A stretch of 29,019 nucleotides of DNA from a virus, in IMG/VR virus record IMGVR_UViG_3300042466_000179, positions 1 to 29,019 of that record; one strand, 5' to 3'. This document shows, one piece after another, positions 16,584 to 26,431 of this stretch (position 1 is the stretch's first letter; every line of letters begins with the position of its first letter). The notes under the pieces were generated by a model. The model saw nothing but the letters and a program-made list of their open reading frames with translations, ran no database searches and was not told the origin of the DNA. The position numbers and the translations under genes are program-made.

Positions 16584-19500
16584 TTATCCGCAAAGATAGA
16601 TGCAAGCGATTAGAGTTGGCGTTGTTGCATCCGCAAACGTCATGGCCTGCCGAGCCTTTGCTACTGTAGTGTTTCGCACAATGTTATCAGATTGCTTCAT
16701 GCCGACACCGGCAACTGAACTGGTAACAATCAAATCACCTGCGGCAAGGTTGCCTGATTCTCCACACACATACATTTGGCCTTCGCCCACAGCGTTGGCT
16801 GCACAATAATTGTACAAATCCTTGTTGGCGTCATATTCTGGATACATGACGGTAATGCTTGTCAGTTTGCCGTCAATTTCTATCCACTCAACTTTTTCAA
16901 TAAAAGCGGCAGGTTGTGCATTTGCCAACAAGCCATTATTGACAACCATTATTCCAACAGGTACTTGATTAGCTGACGCAGACATAGCCACTTCAAATAA
17001 TGTGTTGCTGATATTTTTGGCAATAATTAATTGAACGTCACAAACAATGTAACCAATTGGAATATTTACTCCAACTGTGACTAATACATCGTGAGCGCCA
17101 GTAAATGGCCCGTAGTTAGTGCCAGCCCCGTCCGCATAAAAATCATACGCATTTGCTGCACCAACAATTCCCGATGTAACTGTGCCGCCGTTTGATGCTG
17201 TATTTACTCCACGCACGCCATGATTAGTGGCTCCGGTTTGTGTTGCAACGCCATAGACGCCAACACCTGTTGATGTTGATTGTCCACAAACACCATTTGC
17301 TGCGCTGCCTAAACCATAAACACCAGCAGTAAATATAAAACTATTTGTCCCCGTGGTGTTGTTGCCGTAGATTGCAGGAGCTAAATTTGTGTTAATTATT
17401 GCTGCTGATGCTGGGAAAGTTGTGGCATTAGAATTAATGTACAACGTACCTAGACTGCCACCAGTTTCAATTATTACGCCGCCTGCTGAACTATAAACTT
17501 TTAATGAGTTTGTGGAGTTATCCATCATAACTCTTTGCCCACTTGCTGCCGTTTGTATCAATGCTCCTGTTACTGTTCCTGCTGTAATTGTCCCAAGATC
17601 GGCGCTGATTGCAGATAGATTGCCAACCTTTAGATTTGACAAATATGGCGTGTTCCAGATTGTTTGATTGGCAACGGGATAGTAAATGCCATCGCTTTGG
17701 AACATTGCCTGCGATGCGCCAGGGCTTTGCACGGCATAGGTAAATGCAGTAGCAGACGTAGGCGAAAAACTGGTTGTGTTTGGCAAACCCGTCCCAGCAA
17801 TGGTAACTGCTGCGCCGGTGACTGTTGGATTGCCAGCGTACAAGGCGTAACAAATGACTGCGCTGTTTCCCGTGTTTCCAGTTGCTCCAGTTGCGCCTGT
17901 GGCTCCAGTTGCGCCCGTGGCGCCTGTGGCCCCTGTAGCGCCGTTTTGAGCAATTGCTTGAACGCTAAACCCGCTGGCCCATGATACGGTTGTTGTAGCC
18001 GTGCTTGCAGGCGCTGAAATGCTTATGCTGGCTTGCCAGAGATAGGTTCCTGCTGTGCCTGGGTTAGCAGGTATTGCCACTGCCCAGCCGTTGCCGCCTG
18101 TGTACCCTGCGTTAGATGCTGTGGCCCATGTCCATGTGCTGCTGCCGCTCGGGTTGCCTGGCGTGCTGTTTGCCCACTGGTATAGATACACAGTTGCCGT
18201 TTGCGTGCCTACTGTGCCTGTGGGTGCCCACACTAGCCCAGAACTTGTGCCGCTGATTTGCGATTGTGAAATATCGTTTGCAGCAATAAAGCCAAAATAA
18301 TACGTGCCTGCTGGCAGGATTAAATTTAAAAATGTGAATGTCGTGCTTGGCGTTAATGGTGTCGATGCCGAGGAAACAAAAGTATCCAGCAACGTCCACT
18401 GGCTTGCGGTTGGTGATGCAAACGTAGAATAAAACAATGTCAGTCTTGTTGTGCGTCCTATGCTTGGCGTAGTAATTTGAATGTCAAATGATGGCACATT
18501 GTTTGTCGGGCGTGATGCGCTTACTACGGGTGCGCTTAACGCAGAAAAGAAACTAGCAGACGACAGATTGCTGTTAGGTGCTGGGCTGTATTGAGTGATT
18601 GCAACATCGTCATAAACGGCAGCGTTGTATTCATTCAACTCTAAATTTGCGCCAAGGTTTCCATCAGGCAAGGAAATCTCGCTAACCTTCATTGCCCGAA
18701 ATAACTTGGCACTCCACCCGTAGCTAGTATTTGTAATGGACACCACATCGCCAGCGTCAATCTGTATTGCTGGATACGCTGCGTTAATGCTGACAATCAA
18801 ATCCTCACGGGCCTGCTCTAGCACTCGGTTTGCCAAATAGCTAACCTGCACAGACTCATTGATTAAATCAAAGTTGCAAGAGAATTTATTAATTGGCTCA
18901 TTGGCGTAAAGCAAACCACCGGGAGTTTCTAGGTAAACCAAATCCCTTTGATCGCGGTTTAGCTTGCTGGGGAATTGGGCTTCAATTTGATTGATTGAAT
19001 TTGATATGTCTGTCAGGCTAACTTTTATTTCGCCAATGATGTTGGTATCGTCAAAAGCATAGGAAGTGCTTTCCGCTTTGTTGACAACAATTGACCATTT
19101 TCCAGAAGCAGCGTTATAAGCGTTCCAGCTATCGCAAGCAAGCATGATGCGATCAATATTTGCCAGTACATTTTGACCAGTGTCTAAAACGCCGTTAATG
19201 CGATACCTTGCTTGAGTTGCCGGGTTGCCGCTGCTGTCGGTAAAGGTAATCGTCTGATCGGCGTAGGTGTTAAGTGCTGTAGCTGATGCACTGTCAATTA
19301 ACGCTGCCGCCATGCCGCCGCCGTACACTTCGTTTCTTACATAATCTGCCCACACATCGCCAGGCTTGGCTGCTCCTGTGCTGTTTAGATTTTGCGTGAC
19401 GTTAAAAGTAATTGGCTGTAGATTTGTTGTGCCAGCGTCTTGGCTGTAAATCAGTTTAACAATCGCAAAGGCCAGCCCGTTCATTTGCCGGGTGCCTGTC

Positions 19501-20210
19501 CAGCGTTCAGCAGATGCAATGTCAGAGCCGCCCATGTAAGTGCTTGGCGCTGTGCCGGTTACGTTTGTGATTACCCCTGCATCGGTGGAAGTGTACAAAT
19601 TAATAAAAAGGAAACCATTGATTTTTGTATCAACATTTCCTGCGCCATCTGTTAAGCTGACAACTTTGGTTAAATCGCTGCCATCAAAAGTAATTAGCCG
19701 GTCGCCGTAGTAAAAATTATTATTTGTTGCTGTGCCGGTGCCGGTTCCTGCGCCAGTGCAAGTAAAAACAACACCTACAGTATTTGCCGATGCACCAATT
19801 AACGTAAAGTTAGTTGAGCCTACTGTTGTAATTGTGTAAATTGTTCCAATTAAAAAACTACCGGCTGTTGATGTAGTTGTTCGATTAAAACTAAATTGCC
19901 CATTGGGACTAATGCTGCTGATTGCCAGCACGTAGTACATTGTTTTCTGATCTGTTGTCAGCACGGCATCAACAAATGTGCCGCCCATAAAGGCGCTGCC
20001 GTAAACAATCGGAATTGAGTTAGTAGTATTGGGTGCTACTTGTTGTCTGACGCCTTGATCTACGGGTTGGTTTGCTGTTGGATCGTTCGGCGCAAATATC
20101 CGAGAAACAACATAGCTGACGGCAAAGTTAACAGCAAAAGTTGAGACTGCTACCGCAAAAGTACCGCCTCCTAATAGTGCTGCGCCATAGGCAATAATTG
20201 TTGCAACCAT
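16584..20210 (-). CDS. Tail-tip host-specificity protein (J-like)
   Basis: A 1208-aa protein. The N-terminus has hydrophobic segments (about 1-40) followed by IPIVYGSAFMGGTFVDAVLT, as in central tail-tip proteins of the lambda J type. Residues 115-162 form an inserted small beta domain (IGTIYTITTVGSTNFTLIGA and on). The core includes the hub region with QIDAGDVVSITNTSYG and VSEISLPDGNLG. Fibronectin-like beta domains follow (TTRLTLFYSTFASP), then a collagen-like run at 757-780, a region of Gly-Val-Tyr-Gly type repeats, and a C-terminal domain with EGQMYVCGESGNLAAGDLIV ending ACIYLCG. It would close the tail tip and contact the receptor. Its start overlaps the GNAT stop as TAATG. Confidence 0.85.
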   Translation of the reverse strand: MVATIIAYGAALLGGGTFAVAVSTFAVNFAVSYVVSRIFAPNDPTANQPVDQGVRQQVAPNTTNSIPIVYGSAFMGGTFVDAVLTTDQKTMYYVLAISSISPNGQFSFNRTTTSTAGSFLIGTIYTITTVGSTNFTLIGASANTVGVVFTCTGAGTGTGTATNNNFYYGDRLITFDGSDLTKVVSLTDGAGNVDTKINGFLFINLYTSTDAGVITNVTGTAPSTYMGGSDIASAERWTGTRQMNGLAFAIVKLIYSQDAGTTNLQPITFNVTQNLNSTGAAKPGDVWADYVRNEVYGGGMAAALIDSASATALNTYADQTITFTDSSGNPATQARYRINGVLDTGQNVLANIDRIMLACDSWNAYNAASGKWSIVVNKAESTSYAFDDTNIIGEIKVSLTDISNSINQIEAQFPSKLNRDQRDLVYLETPGGLLYANEPINKFSCNFDLINESVQVSYLANRVLEQAREDLIVSINAAYPAIQIDAGDVVSITNTSYGWSAKLFRAMKVSEISLPDGNLGANLELNEYNAAVYDDVAITQYSPAPNSNLSSASFFSALSAPVVSASRPTNNVPSFDIQITTPSIGRTTRLTLFYSTFASPTASQWTLLDTFVSSASTPLTPSTTFTFLNLILPAGTYYFGFIAANDISQSQISGTSSGLVWAPTGTVGTQTATVYLYQWANSTPGNPSGSSTWTWATASNAGYTGGNGWAVAIPANPGTAGTYLWQASISISAPASTATTTVSWASGFSVQAIAQNGATGATGATGATGATGATGATGNTGNSAVICYALYAGNPTVTGAAVTIAGTGLPNTTSFSPTSATAFTYAVQSPGASQAMFQSDGIYYPVANQTIWNTPYLSNLKVGNLSAISADLGTITAGTVTGALIQTAASGQRVMMDNSTNSLKVYSSAGGVIIETGGSLGTLYINSNATTFPASAAIINTNLAPAIYGNNTTGTNSFIFTAGVYGLGSAANGVCGQSTSTGVGVYGVATQTGATNHGVRGVNTASNGGTVTSGIVGAANAYDFYADGAGTNYGPFTGAHDVLVTVGVNIPIGYIVCDVQLIIAKNISNTLFEVAMSASANQVPVGIMVVNNGLLANAQPAAFIEKVEWIEIDGKLTSITVMYPEYDANKDLYNYCAANAVGEGQMYVCGESGNLAAGDLIVTSSVAGVGMKQSDNIVRNTTVAKARQAMTFADATTPTLIACIYLCG
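17871..17942 (-). repeat. Collagen-like Gly-X-Y repeat in the J-like gene
   Basis: Eight Gly-X-Y triplets (six Gly-Ala-Thr, then Gly-Asn-Thr and Gly-Asn-Ser). The DNA is a 9-nt degenerate repeat. Such runs form triple helices in phage fibres and tend to vary in length by recombination. Confidence 0.9.
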
Positions 20211-20659
20211 TACTGCACCCTAAAAAATGTTGCTTGCATGGGGCTGTAGCCTCTTTTTGTGTAATCAATCCATGAGTTGTTAGCCATCACAGCCGTGACT
20301 GCTACATCAATGCGCCCGTCATCAATTAAATCTGTAGCCAAACGATTAAATTCTTTCCAGAGCCTGCCGCCCACAGTGCCGTTTCTATGCTCTGGCTTTA
20401 CCCACCATGCTAGTTCGTGCAGTTCGTAAACTTCTGGGCACCAGACGTTTGTAGTAATCAGTGCCGCAATAAAACCTCGGGATTCGTTGTCGATCAGTAC
20501 AAAGCCACGCCCTGCCATCATTTGCGTCATCAGGTTGGCAACGTGCGTTTCATCATGCGCTGCTGCTGCTTGTAGTGCAGGCACAGGCGTCTGCGTGCTG
20601 TAGTCCCGCATCATTTGCAGCAATGCAGGCATATCGTGTTTGTTGGCTTCCCGAATCAT
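20210..20659 (-). CDS. GNAT-family acetyltransferase
   Basis: A 149-aa protein with the GNAT layout: MIREANKHDMPALLQMM (strand 1 and helix 1), a central strand pair (GFVLIDNESRGFIAALITT), YELHELAWWVKPEHRNGTVG GRLW at motif A (acetyl-CoA-binding Q/RxxGxG/A-like loop, here R-N-G-T-V-G-G) and a C-terminal VTAVMANNSWIDYTKRGYSP. It sits exactly between a distal-tail gene and the J-like gene, where lambda has K and I. It overlaps both neighbours and must be co-translated with tail genes. Substrate unknown: a tail protein, host protein or small molecule are all possible. Confidence 0.8.
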   Translation of the reverse strand: MIREANKHDMPALLQMMRDYSTQTPVPALQAAAAHDETHVANLMTQMMAGRGFVLIDNESRGFIAALITTNVWCPEVYELHELAWWVKPEHRNGTVGGRLWKEFNRLATDLIDDGRIDVAVTAVMANNSWIDYTKRGYSPMQATFFRVQ

Positions 20660-21309: not shown

Positions 21310-21974
21310 CCTGTAATGTCCTCAATAAACACAAAATCACCATCCCATTGCACAAATGCGCCCGAGGTCATTGGGTTAAGTGTGTAGGTTGGGCATTGTG
21401 CTGCAAGTAGATAAAACGTGCAATCTGAGCCAACTGCGGTTAATGCGTTGCCGATTGTGGGCGTGCCAATAATAGGACGATGCAGGTTAAATGTAATTGA
21501 CGATCCGGGAGGGTGTGGCGACGTGCTGCCCAATGGAACATCTGATGTTACTTTATAAGAATAAATACCAATTTGCAAAAAATCCCCGGCTTTAAATACC
21601 AATTGTGCGGGTGTGCCATTTGGTAAGTTACCAAGCGTGATCTGGGTTCCATTTGCTGTATAAGCACCAATTGTCATTGCAGCTACTTGCGCTTGCACTA
21701 GTTCGCCTTTGTATGCTGTAAACCAATTTAGTAGGCTGCTAGCAAAGGTGATTGTCTCGGGCAGTTGGCGATCTTTGTTGTCAATGGCCTGGATAACGCC
21801 ACGCACTTGCGGGTAATAAAGGTAGGCGTGCGGCCTAACGGTAAATGACCAAGGCACAGATGTAAGGTATTCGGCAACCCGTACCTGGCCTGATCTACTA
21901 ACCTGCTGCCCAACAGTACGCCGGTTCTGGACGCTAATGCTTTGGCTGATTTCAAAGATGGTTTGAAAACTCAT
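21306..21974 (-). CDS. Distal tail protein, Dit/M-like
   Basis: A 222-aa protein directly after the tape measure. N-terminal NRRTVGQQVSRSGQVRVAEY is followed by PWSFTVRPHAYLYYPQ, a pattern of distal tail proteins. Then comes a domain with FKAGDFLQIGIYSYKVTSDV and ITFNLHRPI. It would form the ring joining tube and tip. It is coupled by ATGA to the tape measure and the next gene. Confidence 0.7.
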   Translation of the reverse strand: MSFQTIFEISQSISVQNRRTVGQQVSRSGQVRVAEYLTSVPWSFTVRPHAYLYYPQVRGVIQAIDNKDRQLPETITFASSLLNWFTAYKGELVQAQVAAMTIGAYTANGTQITLGNLPNGTPAQLVFKAGDFLQIGIYSYKVTSDVPLGSTSPHPPGSSITFNLHRPIIGTPTIGNALTAVGSDCTFYLLAAQCPTYTLNPMTSGAFVQWDGDFVFIEDITG

Positions 21975-24184
21975 GTTCTTCCCCTGCCAAGCGATAAGTT
22001 TTTAGCGCCATATGCATTTGCTGCCCAGACTGCTTTACTGCTGCCCAGGATGCGATCTTCAAACGATTTGGTGTCAATTGCTTGAATATTGTAGTTGGTG
22101 ATGTTTGTAGAGCCGCCCATCATTGCCATAGAGTGATTTGGCACAATTGCGCCAGCACTGCGAGGCACAAACAACTCTGGCCCACGTTCGCCAACTAAAT
22201 AGCTGTTGTTGCTTTCAACTGGCCCACCATCCGCTTTAGGCCCAGCAAATGGTTCTGCTAAAGATACTGACGGTGAAAAGACTGCTTTTGCAAGCATTGA
22301 AAATAAATTGTTTGCAGATGCTCTAAATTGAATTGCAAGCATATCTTTAATAACTGACTTTGCAAAATCTCCAAAATTTAATTTTCCAGTTGTTACAAAT
22401 TCATCCAATGCTTTTGTCATGTTGCCCATTAATGAATCAAAACTTTTTGCACCAGCCTCAAAGCTGGTTTCCATGTCTTTGCCAAAAGTCTGCGCCCTAA
22501 ATAAAAATCCATCAAAAACGCCGCCTGATTTTTCGGCTTTTAATATTCTTGTCCGTTCAAGTATATTTTGCAATGCTTTTTCATTTAGTTTTTCTTCTCT
22601 TGCAAGGGCTTCCATCCTGCTCATGCTGTCAAGATTTTTCATTGACATAATGGCTTCAACAGCATCTGCATATTTCCATTGTTGCTCTAACAATTCTTTT
22701 TCTTGCTGCAACTCTTCTGCTTTTAAATAAACTCCTTGACGCTCTAATTTAAACATTTCTTGAGCGCGAATTAAAGATGTTTTGTCTAGTTCTTGCTTTT
22801 CTCGTATTGATGTATTGCCTTCTGAATAGAAAGCATTTAAATTAGCAATGGCTATAGCTGCCTCTTCTGCACTTGCTATTTCATGTGCTGCTTGCTCTGC
22901 TATATTTTTAAAAACTAATGTTCTTTTCTTTTCTTCGTATTCTTGTTTGATTACAAATAATTTTGCGTTAAGAATTATCCAGTTTGTAAGTGCAAATTTA
23001 TTTTCTTCAGTTTTATCTTTATGCAAACGCTCTAAATCTGCTTCTGCTTTTTTCTTTGCATATTCATTATCTAATGTTTGCTGTTCATTTCTAAATTGAT
23101 TTGCTATGGAAAATTCTTCTTCTAATTTTGCTTTTTTTAATTCAAAGTTTTTAGCTTCTGCCGCCTTTGCTGCCGCCATTGCTTTGGTATCAACACCCGG
23201 CGTTATTTGTCTTTTAGGCTCATTTATTTTTTCTTCTGTTTGACTTTTAGAAAATTCATCTGCTTTAATTCTTTGAATTGCAATTAATGCGTCTTGTTCT
23301 CTTTGCAGGGCCAATATTTCTCTGTCAATTCCTGACAAAAGCATTGGGCTATCCAGCACTAACTCTCTTTGTTTTCCTAGCTTAGCAATTTCTTTGCTTA
23401 ATTCTACAATTCGAACCGTAGGATCATTACCAGTGCCAAACCCAATAAACTTTCCAAAAATAGTAAATGACAAATTAGATATATCTAAGGCTTTTAACCA
23501 TTGACCTAATTTTAATAAACTTGGGCCTAATGATTCAGTAATCAATAAGCTAATTTCTCTACCTACGTTTTTAAATAAATCAAATGCCTGTGCCGCATCT
23601 TTAATGGCTTGCTCTTGTTCAAGCGTTGCGCCTTTACCTTCTTTTAATCCTTTGGCAAAATCTACCATGTCTACGCCTTTGGCGGCTTTACCAAATGCGT
23701 CTGCTGCCCGTGCGTTCCGGGTTAACGGGTCTTCCATGTCCGCTATTGCTTGAGTCGTTTTAAGCAACAACTGCTGCGTAGACATACTGCCAATGTCTTT
23801 AAGAGATATGCCTAAATCGCTAAATGTTTTTTGTCCTTCAAATGAGCCTTTTGCTGCTTTGTCTACAAAGTCTGCAAAACTGGCAATCATTTTTCCAGCG
23901 TTTTGGCCCTTGCCACCAGAATTTTCTAACGCATTTGTCAGCTTTATAATTGAATCTATTGCTATGTCATTTGCAGCAGCAACATCACTAAGTTCATCTG
24001 CATATGCTACAGCTTTATATGTTGCAGCAACAAATGCAGCACCTAGTAACAATGTTGCATTTTTAGCTGCACCAGCAGTTGTACTTGCAAATTGATCTAA
24101 CTTTCTGCCAGCAGCCGCTATGCCGGCGACAAACTCGGCACTGTTAAGGCCAAGGAGTACCGCAAGTCGTGCAATATTAGCCAT
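21971..24184 (-). CDS. Tail tape measure protein
   Basis: A 737-aa protein that sets tail length and is ejected with the DNA. The N-terminus (ARLAVLLGLNSAEFVAGIAA) and the early hydrophobic helix (ATLLLGAAFVAATY) are typical. A long charged coiled-coil middle follows (about 300-570, many Glu/Lys/Gln heptads), AT-rich at DNA level. The C-terminus has the conserved GGPVESNNSYLVGERGPELF, then VPRSAGAIVPN. At about 0.15 nm per residue, a tail near 110 nm is expected. Its start overlaps the T-like frame by 8 nt. Confidence 0.93.
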   Translation of the reverse strand: MANIARLAVLLGLNSAEFVAGIAAAGRKLDQFASTTAGAAKNATLLLGAAFVAATYKAVAYADELSDVAAANDIAIDSIIKLTNALENSGGKGQNAGKMIASFADFVDKAAKGSFEGQKTFSDLGISLKDIGSMSTQQLLLKTTQAIADMEDPLTRNARAADAFGKAAKGVDMVDFAKGLKEGKGATLEQEQAIKDAAQAFDLFKNVGREISLLITESLGPSLLKLGQWLKALDISNLSFTIFGKFIGFGTGNDPTVRIVELSKEIAKLGKQRELVLDSPMLLSGIDREILALQREQDALIAIQRIKADEFSKSQTEEKINEPKRQITPGVDTKAMAAAKAAEAKNFELKKAKLEEEFSIANQFRNEQQTLDNEYAKKKAEADLERLHKDKTEENKFALTNWIILNAKLFVIKQEYEEKKRTLVFKNIAEQAAHEIASAEEAAIAIANLNAFYSEGNTSIREKQELDKTSLIRAQEMFKLERQGVYLKAEELQQEKELLEQQWKYADAVEAIMSMKNLDSMSRMEALAREEKLNEKALQNILERTRILKAEKSGGVFDGFLFRAQTFGKDMETSFEAGAKSFDSLMGNMTKALDEFVTTGKLNFGDFAKSVIKDMLAIQFRASANNLFSMLAKAVFSPSVSLAEPFAGPKADGGPVESNNSYLVGERGPELFVPRSAGAIVPNHSMAMMGGSTNITNYNIQAIDTKSFEDRILGSSKAVWAANAYGAKNLSLGRGRT

Positions 24185-24500
24185 TTTTGAATCTTTCTTT
24201 GCTGAATCCGGGTGCTTGCACCATCAACGATAACAGACTGTCATTAGCCTGCGCTGCAAGCTGTTCTTTTGTTGCTGGAGGGCATAAGTAGTCATGTGCC
24301 GCGCCAAGCGTACCAGACAGCTTGTAGGGGGCTGCATTGGGCGGTCTTATGTAGTTAAAGATGCCCGTTGTCAAAACTGCAAGCTGCGACAGCAATCCAT
24401 GATTGCCAATTGTTCCATCAGCATAAAGTGTTTGGATTTGCAGCATGGTGATCTGGTCAAGATTGGCAATAGATTCGGGTGTATGCCCGTTAAAGATCAT
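24177..24500 (-). CDS. Tail assembly chaperone, T-like part of the frameshift product
   Basis: A 107-codon frame from the first ATG, but it is probably expressed mainly as the C-terminal part of a G-T fusion. There is no SD before the ATG at 24500. The frame is open upstream to 24536, giving LIGSLKEQVAAA, and is exactly -1 relative to the preceding chaperone gene. Slippage at G GGA AAC joins them into a 274-aa protein. The middle holds AQLAVLTTGIFNYI-like helices (LLSQLAVLTTGIF). As in lambda GT, the T part would bind the tube protein while G coats the tape measure. Confidence 0.8.
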   Translation of the reverse strand: MIFNGHTPESIANLDQITMLQIQTLYADGTIGNHGLLSQLAVLTTGIFNYIRPPNAAPYKLSGTLGAAHDYLCPPATKEQLAAQANDSLLSLMVQAPGFSKERFKNG

Positions 24501-24532
24501 CGCAGCCGCGACTTGTTCCTTTAACGAGCCGA

Positions 24533-25000
24533 TTAGTTTCCCCGTATCTCCCGGTAAGTGGGGCTGATTACTTCAGCAATTTTTTCAACCAACTCACGTT
24601 GCACACTCAAAGGCCATTCTTGTTCAATCTCAGCGTATGTAATGTCGTCCAAATTGTTGACAGGATTTTCTGCTTGAAGCAGACGCACCATCTCTGTGAT
24701 ACGGGCTTCCATCATTGCTTTGTTTGTCGCTGCCTCGCGCATTGAACGACCAGACACCACTACATCATTTTCTGTAAAAACCAATTCTGAGTTTTCAGCA
24801 GATTTAAATTCATCCAATGATTTTGTCAATTCAACATAAATCTTGTCTACCGTTGTGCTGTCTGGCTTCATTATTCGTGCGTATATGGCATCACTTTCAG
24901 ACACCAGTGGCACTCGCACTTTGAAGGTATGACCTCCAAGATCAAATTGCTTAATGCGTAATTGTGCGCCAGTTCCTAATGCGCTTGATAGTCTTGTCAT
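24533..25000 (-). CDS. Tail assembly chaperone, G-like
   Basis: A 155-aa protein. The N-terminal part is beta-rich (LRIKQFDLGGHTFKVRVPLV). The C-terminal part is helical and acidic (NVRL-free, with ITYAEIEQEWPLSVQRELVE and KIAEVISPTYREIRGN). Position between tail-tube and tape-measure genes and the slippery heptamer overlapping its last codons identify it as the G-type chaperone that coats the tape measure during tail assembly. Stop TAA at 24533-24535 follows the heptamer immediately. It overlaps the upstream HK97-gp10-like gene by ATGA. Confidence 0.85.
   Translation of the reverse strand: MTRLSSALGTGAQLRIKQFDLGGHTFKVRVPLVSESDAIYARIMKPDSTTVDKIYVELTKSLDEFKSAENSELVFTENDVVVSGRSMREAATNKAMMEARITEMVRLLQAENPVNNLDDITYAEIEQEWPLSVQRELVEKIAEVISPTYREIRGN
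24536..24542 (-). promoter_or_regulatory. -1 ribosomal frameshift site G GGA AAC
   Basis: The minus strand reads cgG GGA AAC TAA. The X XXY YYZ heptamer is in the correct phase (codons GGA and AAC of the G-like gene), differs from lambda's G GGA AAG by one base, and stands right before the zero-frame stop. A -1 slip enters the open T-like frame. Confidence 0.88.
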
Positions 25001-25554
25001 GTTTTCACCTTGTTGTATTCGTTTATTCGTCTTGCCAGAACTTCACCAAGTTTTTTTACTGTAGCTTGCGATTGCGATTCTAACGCTGGCCTCATAAATG
25101 AATGGGCTGGATTTCTAGCCGTGCCAAACTCTTGCGCTATTGCTCTGGCATCATATGGAAAATTTATAGATTGAGCGAATTTCTTAAATTTCTTTGCATA
25201 TGCTTTTTTATCTGATTCATATAATGTTTTATTTTCTTCATAAAATGCTTGTCTTTTCTTTTTAGGAAACGCTTTTGTAGTCACGATTGCGATAACCGTA
25301 TCTGATTGCGTTATGTATTTTGATCTCCTGTCTTTGTTGGTTGGACGCCTTGCTGACAATGTTAAATTGTTTGCCAATTGCGTTGTGTCTTTTGGCGCTA
25401 AAGTTTTTGCAGCTTGTAAAACTGTCTTCATCGCTTCCCGCACCGCAGGAATTAGGATTTTGCTTCTAGCATTTTTGTCGCCAATTTGTTGCGATAAACT
25501 TTCAAAAGCAGCATAAACATTGCCGATTCCTTCAAGTTTTATGCTGACGCTCAT
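24997..25554 (-). CDS. Tail completion protein, HK97 gp10-like
   Basis: A 185-aa basic protein. The N-terminal helix region has SKILIPAVREAMKTVLQAAK and TLAPKDTTQLANNLTLSARR; the C-terminal part has IAQEFGTARNPAHSFMRPAL, the signature of the HK97 gp10/tail-component family that joins neck and tail. It is rich in Lys. Its place after the tube gene, rather than before it, is somewhat different from HK97. ATGA overlap with the G-like gene. Confidence 0.85.
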   Translation of the reverse strand: MSVSIKLEGIGNVYAAFESLSQQIGDKNARSKILIPAVREAMKTVLQAAKTLAPKDTTQLANNLTLSARRPTNKDRRSKYITQSDTVIAIVTTKAFPKKKRQAFYEENKTLYESDKKAYAKKFKKFAQSINFPYDARAIAQEFGTARNPAHSFMRPALESQSQATVKKLGEVLARRINEYNKVKT

Positions 25555-25555
25555 G

Positions 25556-25777
25556 TCATCCTCGAATAATATCTTTGTACATTAAATTGTTAAGTTCTAC
25601 GACAAATTTCACGATCTGCTCTGGCGTCATTGTGTTGGCATGGTTGGCAGCTATCTGATGCACCAGTTGGATGCCTGTCATCTTTTGTTGGGTAAACCCA
25701 AACCAATCTTTTCTAGACTCGGCTTGAGTTACCAAAAAATTTAACAGGTCATTCGTGTTCTGTATTTTGTCGGACAT
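25556..25777 (-). CDS. Hypothetical small tail-module protein
   Basis: A 73-aa helical protein (SDKIQNTNDLLNFLVTQAES, then MTPEQIVKFVVELNNLMYKD). No family recognised. It overlaps the next upstream gene (25749-25940) by 29 nt and lies 1 nt from the gp10-like start. Position between tube and completion genes suggests a tail assembly role. Confidence 0.65.
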   Translation of the reverse strand: MSDKIQNTNDLLNFLVTQAESRKDWFGFTQQKMTGIQLVHQIAANHANTMTPEQIVKFVVELNNLMYKDIIRG

Positions 25778-25940
25778 TTTTTTCCAAGAGTTTTAGGCAG
25801 ACATATTCCGCTGAATCTGTGTCTGCCTTTGCCAACGCCTCGGCTATTTCCGGTGCGCTGACTACCTGCTGCCGTGCAAGTGCAGCCAGGTCGCCGTAAC
25901 TGGCGGTCATTTCTGCCAGCACCGCATCTATTGCGGTCAT
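25749..25940 (-). CDS. Hypothetical small tail-module protein
   Basis: A 63-aa helical protein (TAIDAVLAEMTASYGDLAAL, then APEIAEALAKADTDSAEYVC). This frame was chosen over the overlapping 25741-25971 frame because its start forms an ATGA with the tube gene and its composition is protein-like. No function recognised. Confidence 0.65.
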   Translation of the reverse strand: MTAIDAVLAEMTASYGDLAALARQQVVSAPEIAEALAKADTDSAEYVCLKLLEKNVRQNTEHE

Positions 25941-26431
25941 ACTGTATTGCTCCAGCCGTACTGATTGCCACGGGGATGGATGGTGAAATTTACTTTGGCT
26001 TCAGCGCCTGGGGCAGCATCAATTGTCCACTGGCTGACTCGCCCGTTAAATGCGTAGTAAATCGTGTTTGTCCCATCGGTTGCGGCAATCACGTAAGTGC
26101 GATCAATGGTGCCGTTATAGGCGTCTGCACGCAAAAGCAGCAACACGGTATCGCTTGGGTTCCAAGCCGCTGTGATGCTCATGCTTGTCGGCGCTGATTG
26201 CACAGGGATTTTGTCGGATTGACGGGAGCCAGCAACCATGAAAGAGGCTACGGCATCGTCTTGCCCAAATGCCGGGATTGCTTCAACAGGCACCAAGTTG
26301 CCGCTGATTGCCAATGGCGAAACGCTGCCCAAAACGCTCAAATTTGCCGTAGTTAAAGGCGTTGGCGTTGCGCTGGGTTGTGCGTACAAGGTGGCAGAAA
26401 AGCCAGGTAGAATTTTTGTCGGGAGAGCCAT
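25937..26431 (-). CDS. Major tail (tube) protein
   Basis: A 164-aa beta-rich protein (KILPGFSATLYAQPSATPTP, VEAIPAFGQDDAVASFMVAG, then TYVIAATDGTNTIYYAFNG and KVNFTIHPRGNQYGW). Length, composition and position between the tail terminator and the chaperones fit the tube protein that stacks as hexamers. It has its own leader (42 nt free upstream), fitting high expression. Confidence 0.85.
   Translation of the reverse strand: MALPTKILPGFSATLYAQPSATPTPLTTANLSVLGSVSPLAISGNLVPVEAIPAFGQDDAVASFMVAGSRQSDKIPVQSAPTSMSITAAWNPSDTVLLLLRADAYNGTIDRTYVIAATDGTNTIYYAFNGRVSQWTIDAAPGAEAKVNFTIHPRGNQYGWSNTV

Follow-up and report, generated by a model that had tools for sequence, protein, structure and literature searches.

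The window analysed here, that is, the whole 29,019-bp IMG/VR virus record IMGVR_UViG_3300042466_000179, carries on its minus strand a gene pair that, judging from sequence comparison, very probably encodes tail assembly chaperones and is expressed by way of programmed -1 ribosomal frameshifting. A first-pass annotation made from the window alone had proposed that such a shift joins a G-like and a T-like frame. Comparison with relatives bore this out, revealing a conserved slip site that is invariant in the window's own clade, a conserved -1 frame, a T start codon that is dispensable, its ATG having been lost in places, and a covarying hairpin; we infer that ribosomes slip at this site in vivo. 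Every element that the annotation described was found, but it had missed an upstream SD-like element with a GGA core and a downstream stem-loop.

The G-like tail assembly chaperone gene (24533..25000, minus strand), recognized as an ORF and from its relatives, encodes 155 aa and ends in CGG GGA AAC TAA. The T-like -1 frame (24177..24536, minus strand) is an open frame of 119 codons and a stop that would be entered via the frameshift, and the fusion of 274 aa that had been expected agrees with the sum of the two parts (155 + 119). Directly after T comes the gene for the tape-measure protein (21971..24184, minus strand; PHROG 8462, Pfam Tape_meas_lam_C), the start of which, at 24184, is overlapped by the T stop at 24177. 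The major tail protein gene lies upstream (25937..26431, minus strand; PHROG 158 major tail protein, E 8e-5), and its product also has a Pfam Phage_tube_2 match below Pfam's cut-off. Profile searches and ORFs together give the minus-strand order major tail protein, two small ORFs and an HK97-gp10-like gene, G, T, and tape measure; as in lambda-type G/GT pairs, both ORFs are located between the major tail protein and the tape measure.

From this placement and the frameshift, a G/GT tail assembly chaperone is the best reading of the pair, and chaperone function is inferred on that basis. The names "G-like" and "T-like" are appropriate to position, size and mechanism but not to sequence, given that no homology of G or T to lambda gpG/gpT or to the proteins of Burkholderia phage KL1 was detectable; chaperone families diverge widely. 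Neither protein matched a chaperone family in Pfam or PHROG. An AlphaFold model of G (pLDDT 82) gave no significant Foldseek match in the PDB, and in VIA-align its best matches were 5ir0 (Z 6.7), the HK97 tail assembly chaperone 2ob9 (Z 6.1) and 3fgx (Z 5.2), followed by 3.4, values that are modest, all below 8, and supportive only. A Foldseek-type search of a viral structure library with T returned only unnamed relatives and weak rows.

The first-pass annotation had placed a G GGA AAC on the minus strand, in exact phase and directly before TAA, and direct reading confirmed this. The heptamer (24536..24542, minus strand) occupies the last two sense codons of the G ORF in X XXY YYZ phase, within the overlap of the two frames, and the zero-frame TAA (24533..24535, minus strand) is directly 3′ of it. 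GGGAAAC occurs five times in the window, both strands together, and a phased heptamer arose within the last six codons in 1.3% of codon shuffles of the G ORF, so that the single sequence is suggestive at most. Clade-wide conservation, unlike one sequence alone, is at the level of sequence decisive for the heptamer's significance. Scanning IMG/VR with G and T yielded at least 194 junctions, at least 126 of them distinct over 120 nt; these are samples. The window's own clade, clade A, accounts for at least 63 distinct junctions, and CGG GGA AAC followed by TAA or TGA is kept in 63/63 of those among the matches listed, GGGAAAC being invariant throughout. In the same clade-A ORFs these codons are rare (CGG 9% of Arg codons, GGA 11% of Gly codons), and synonymous difference at the last three codons (R, G, N) was 0.00 vs. 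an upstream median of 0.49. The stop after the site is TAA or TGA in clade A and TAA or TAG in the sister clade, clade B, which includes the Methylophilaceae phage P19250A.

Past the heptamer the -1 frame reads CTA ATC GGC TCG TTA AAG and so on (LIGSLKEQVAAA) before it reaches an ATG, and it stays open to 24177, in keeping with the earlier claim that a slip would continue through open codons into T. The ATG (24498..24500, minus strand), 33 nt after the G stop, is not a likely start. As had been noted, it is without an SD: none was found at a proper distance, the sole anti-SD match lying >12 nt upstream. In clades A and B, conservation of T as protein begins with the very first codon past the site. 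The first T residues are LIGSLKEQVAAAMIFNGHT in the window vs. VVGSLRTQVRAAMVFNGHT in P19250A (46% identity overall), and the stretch before the ATG is conserved as -1-frame protein even in that phage, at ~46% identity. The ATG is absent in 13 of 113 distinct relatives among the matches listed, with six changes on the tree; CTT, CTA, TTA, CTG or TTG replaces it, mostly leaving no start codon. Since it was lost six times, T cannot start there, and the second frame appears to be reached by a shift with no need of a start of its own. In many clade B genomes, moreover, the -1 frame is not open farther back than three codons before the G stop, and the shift must therefore occur at the last one or two codons.

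A fold of the nucleotides downstream, which the first-pass annotation had recommended as a check for a stimulatory structure, revealed a stem-loop of 12 bp, set 6 nt beyond the heptamer. Its 5′ arm, GCTCGTTAAAGG (24518..24529, minus strand), pairs with the 3′ arm, TCTTTAACGGGC (24485..24496, minus strand), and the 6-nt spacer (24530..24535, minus strand) includes the stop codon. The fold energy was -21.8 kcal/mol compared with -12.7 for shuffled sequences (z -3.4; 0/200 shuffles as low). Over 113 distinct sequences among the matches listed, 97.9% of stem cells are paired; an inner hairpin predicted in the apical loop of the window (24499..24512, minus strand) is not conserved, with 52% of cells paired over the 113 relatives listed. 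Pair 35/71, at the third bases of Ser and Asn codons, is G-C in 74 and A-U in 39 of the 113 distinct sequences listed, with no exception; pair 38/68, at Leu and Phe third bases, is A-U in 66 and G-C in 46 (one exception; 112/113 distinct sequences listed); and pair 32/74, at two further third positions (Gly/Gly), is C-G in 99, U-A in 11 and A-U in three. In the T frame these stem exchanges are all synonymous. When the hairpin region was left out of tree building, 14 changes were counted for the Ser/Asn pair and 16 for the Leu/Phe pair, and at each of these two positions 11/11 independent supported tree pairs covaried (p ~0.001). When every pair of columns across 190 nt was scored without preselection, the same two pairs ranked first and second, and beyond the stem no consistent covarying pairs pointed to a pseudoknot between the apical loop and the 3′ flank. 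A covarying 12-bp stem 6 nt from the slippery site corresponds to the dnaX/IS911 type, in which a stem-loop follows by ~5-9 nt, and on comparative evidence the hairpin appears to be an unusually well-supported frameshift stimulator for a bacterial virus.

The sister clade keeps an A_AAG tetramer, the adjacent stop and the hairpin, mostly without a tandem heptamer. Before the stop, at least 57 distinct junctions have NNA AAG (one of them, L185, a clade C member) and at least three have NNA AAA, counts that hold by construction because the clade-B-type group was defined by an ending in AAAG or AAAA. Six codons (TCA, GAA, CAA, TTA, GGA and GCA) are found at the clade B P site, and AAG is used there though it makes up 11% of Lys codons in these genes. 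Full tandem heptamers are present at about six clade B sites among the matches listed, and most sites have three to four A in a row. What counts as evidence is how few junctions, three of the 126 distinct ones listed, fell outside the GGGAAAC and AAAG/AAAA groups; L163 and L166, both clade C, have GGGAAAG 12 codons upstream, and L263 has TCA AAG one codon before the stop. In the latter, a clade B member (L263:2827-2904), the zero-frame stop comes one codon later (TCA AAG TTA TAG), with A_AAG and hairpin unchanged. The first-pass annotation had regarded retention of both frames with loss of the heptamer as evidence against a frameshift. Such loss does occur in the sister clade, but A_AAR, the stop and the hairpin persist, and on these grounds the loss would modify the mechanism rather than refute the frameshift reading.

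Using clade C T proteins as query, we recovered at least 48 distinct junctions, three of them outlying (L270, L326 and L327) with AAAAAAC. The 48 sites comprise GGGAAAG (41), AAAAAAC (three), GGGAAAA (two), AAAAAAA (one) and GGGAAAC (one). The clade C stem, GGTCAGT...ACTGACC, is unrelated in sequence, and its 6-nt spacing is kept in nearly all 45 rows listed; a Ser/Thr third-base pair exchanges between A-U (30), U-A (nine), G-U (three) and G-C (two). In this clade T lacks an ATG, and some members have a TTG or GTG at most. In a subgroup (L293, L163, L298, L300, L305 and L306) GGGAAAG stands 12 codons before the G stop and the hairpin still follows it by ~6 nt, which indicates that the position of the hairpin is tied to the heptamer rather than to the stop. 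The outlying L270:5900-6345, on an alphaproteobacterial MAG contig, has a T that is remotely related (42%), with A AAA AAC and TAA in the same place; its site sits in a run of eight A, where polymerase slippage could also occur.

Across the lineage the slip site takes the forms GGGAAAC, single-tetramer NNA_AAG, GGGAAAG and AAAAAAC. A last codon AAC goes with a tandem heptamer in all 67 distinct sites listed, which represent only about three independent lineages, and in clade B sites with AAG or AAA as last codon the triplet before it varies freely. It is likely that one cassette, usually with adjacent stop and a hairpin at a fixed 6-nt spacing, was kept in this uncultured lineage while its slip site was switched. 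If this is true, it constitutes a natural experiment in which A_AAG beside a stop and a hairpin suffices for tail-chaperone frameshifting.

Several other explanations can be set against this evidence. Translation of T could begin anew at its ATG, through re-initiation or coupled initiation, and yield a protein of its own, the hairpin regulating how ribosomes reach that start; the ATG is indeed present in 100 of the 113 distinct relatives listed and sits in the hairpin's apical loop, and the P19250A annotation has T as its own protein. We consider this very improbable: the six losses on the tree often leave no ATG, GTG or TTG, clade C offers at best TTG or GTG in some members, protein-level conservation in the -1 frame extends to the codons ahead of the ATG, no SD is properly spaced, and the invariant GGGAAAC would be left unexplained. 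The fusion might instead arise through RNA polymerase slippage at G/A runs, for which the GGGGAAA run of the window and the eight A of L270 could be cited, but a heptamer exactly in XXXYYYZ phase, a stop right beside it and a hairpin spaced as for ribosomal frameshifting all speak for the ribosome, and most clade B sites have just three to four A in a row. Runs of three to four bases are short for polymerase slippage, and of the explanations considered we give this one the least credence.

Somewhat less improbable than either, though still unlikely, is that frameshifting needs the heptamer alone and that the hairpin is conserved for protein sequence or mRNA stability. Its arms encode the conserved T residues GSL and FNGH, and lambda and KL1 show no such stem at this spacing. 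Yet the covariation falls on third codon positions where the exchanges are synonymous (Ser/Asn, Leu/Phe, Gly/Gly), which a protein constraint cannot explain, and in clade C a stem of unrelated sequence stands at the same 6-nt distance.

Upstream of the site, an SD-like element, CGGGAG (24548..24553, minus strand), 13-18 nt upstream of the stop, is a probable 5′ stimulator of the shift, a role suggested by codon bias in clade A. At codon -6 the third base is G in all 63 distinct clade-A junctions listed (AAG 30, CGG 17, AGG 16), with GA next, so that a GGA core is kept in every one; the background in clade-A ORFs is 15% CGG plus AGG among Arg codons and 49% AAG among Lys codons. In the sister clade the element is not uniform.

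Under programmed -1 frameshifting, most ribosomes would end at the TAA and release the 155-aa G-like protein. A minority would be delayed by the stem-loop that begins 6 nt downstream, probably also by SD-like contact upstream; those that slip would re-pair from GGA-AAC to GGG-AAA beside the stop codon and read on in the -1 frame, producing the 274-aa G-T fusion. If the analogy with lambda holds, G would coat the tape-measure protein and the T extension would recruit the tail-tube subunit.

This kind of frameshift is already known from lambda G/GT, and GGGAAAC has been reported for KL1, Colossus and HCTV-1. Lambda and the window share the order major tail protein, G, T, tape measure, the -1 frame, the GGGAAA core and the overlap of T with the tape-measure start. 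They differ in that lambda has Z = G and no comparable stem 6 nt downstream; the first-pass annotation had put the lambda site at the same place, which was mistaken, as its GGGAAAG lies five codons before the G stop. In KL1 gp18/gp19, GGGAAAC is directly before TGA, with a downstream hairpin predicted by the authors (PMC3483164). The heptamer abuts the stop in both KL1 and the window, and the product sizes are similar (142/264 aa in KL1 vs. 155/274 aa), but KL1 has no detectable G/T homology, no matching stem at 6-nt spacing, and an extra gene before the tape measure. GGGAAAC is also found at tail chaperones of Caulobacter phage Colossus and, as G_GGA_AAC, of haloarchaeal virus HCTV-1 (PMC3556154, PMC5009743), which are likened to the window by the shared heptamer alone. 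P19250A (KX815270; P19250A_0013/0014), in contrast, is homologous (G 43-45%, T 46%, major capsid 56%) and has the hairpin and adjacent stop, but its slip site is TCA AAG TAG, with no tandem heptamer, and the pair is annotated as two separate hypothetical proteins. Shift sites of the NNA_AAG type are known from synthetic constructs and as G_CGA_AAG of IS1222 (PMC5009743). Most of clade B would need a single A_AAG tetramer slip like that of IS1222, which is, however, in an IS transposase and not a tail chaperone; the window itself has a tandem heptamer. In E. coli, A_AAC shifts less well than A_AAG, a difference demonstrated with A_AAA_AAG vs. A_AAA_AAC (PMC5009743), and frameshift efficiency in the window may therefore be low. 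In a search that left most subscription journals outside, no literature was found on a frameshift in relatives of P19250A, on a covarying tail-chaperone hairpin, or on the switching of slip sites at these genes.

This reading puts right how a tail-gene pair is annotated in a widespread aquatic (freshwater-type) phage group, of which the sole isolate found, P19250A, lists the pair as two hypothetical proteins. Synonymous covariation between codons supports a phage frameshift stimulator unusually well, and the natural replacement of one slip site by another on a shared scaffold makes the roles of tandem heptamer, adjacent stop and hairpin testable.

Other features of the region were observed in passing. 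The HK97-gp10-like/neck gene (24997-25554; PHROG 5) is in an unusual place between the major tail protein and G, and P19250A has a similar-sized gene at the matching place. The two small ORFs between it and the major tail protein gene (25749-25940 and 25556-25777, minus strand) overlap by 29 nt with frames offset by +1. Of the two, the 73-aa ORF is conserved across clades A, B and C, and the 63-aa ORF, with a weak Phage_TAC_15 match (E 0.08), is patchy in relatives. These two as a second frameshift or chaperone pair were rejected, given the +1 offset and a 63-aa ORF that is missing or unrecognisable in most relatives. A genome-contig search for the host gave just two MAG contigs and no clear host. 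Elsewhere in the tail module, a 149-aa ORF (20210-20659) has the look of a GNAT-type acetyltransferase, its translation being judged by eye, and after the tail genes a 1208-aa ORF (16584-20210, minus strand) contains a collagen-like GATGATGATGATG stretch.
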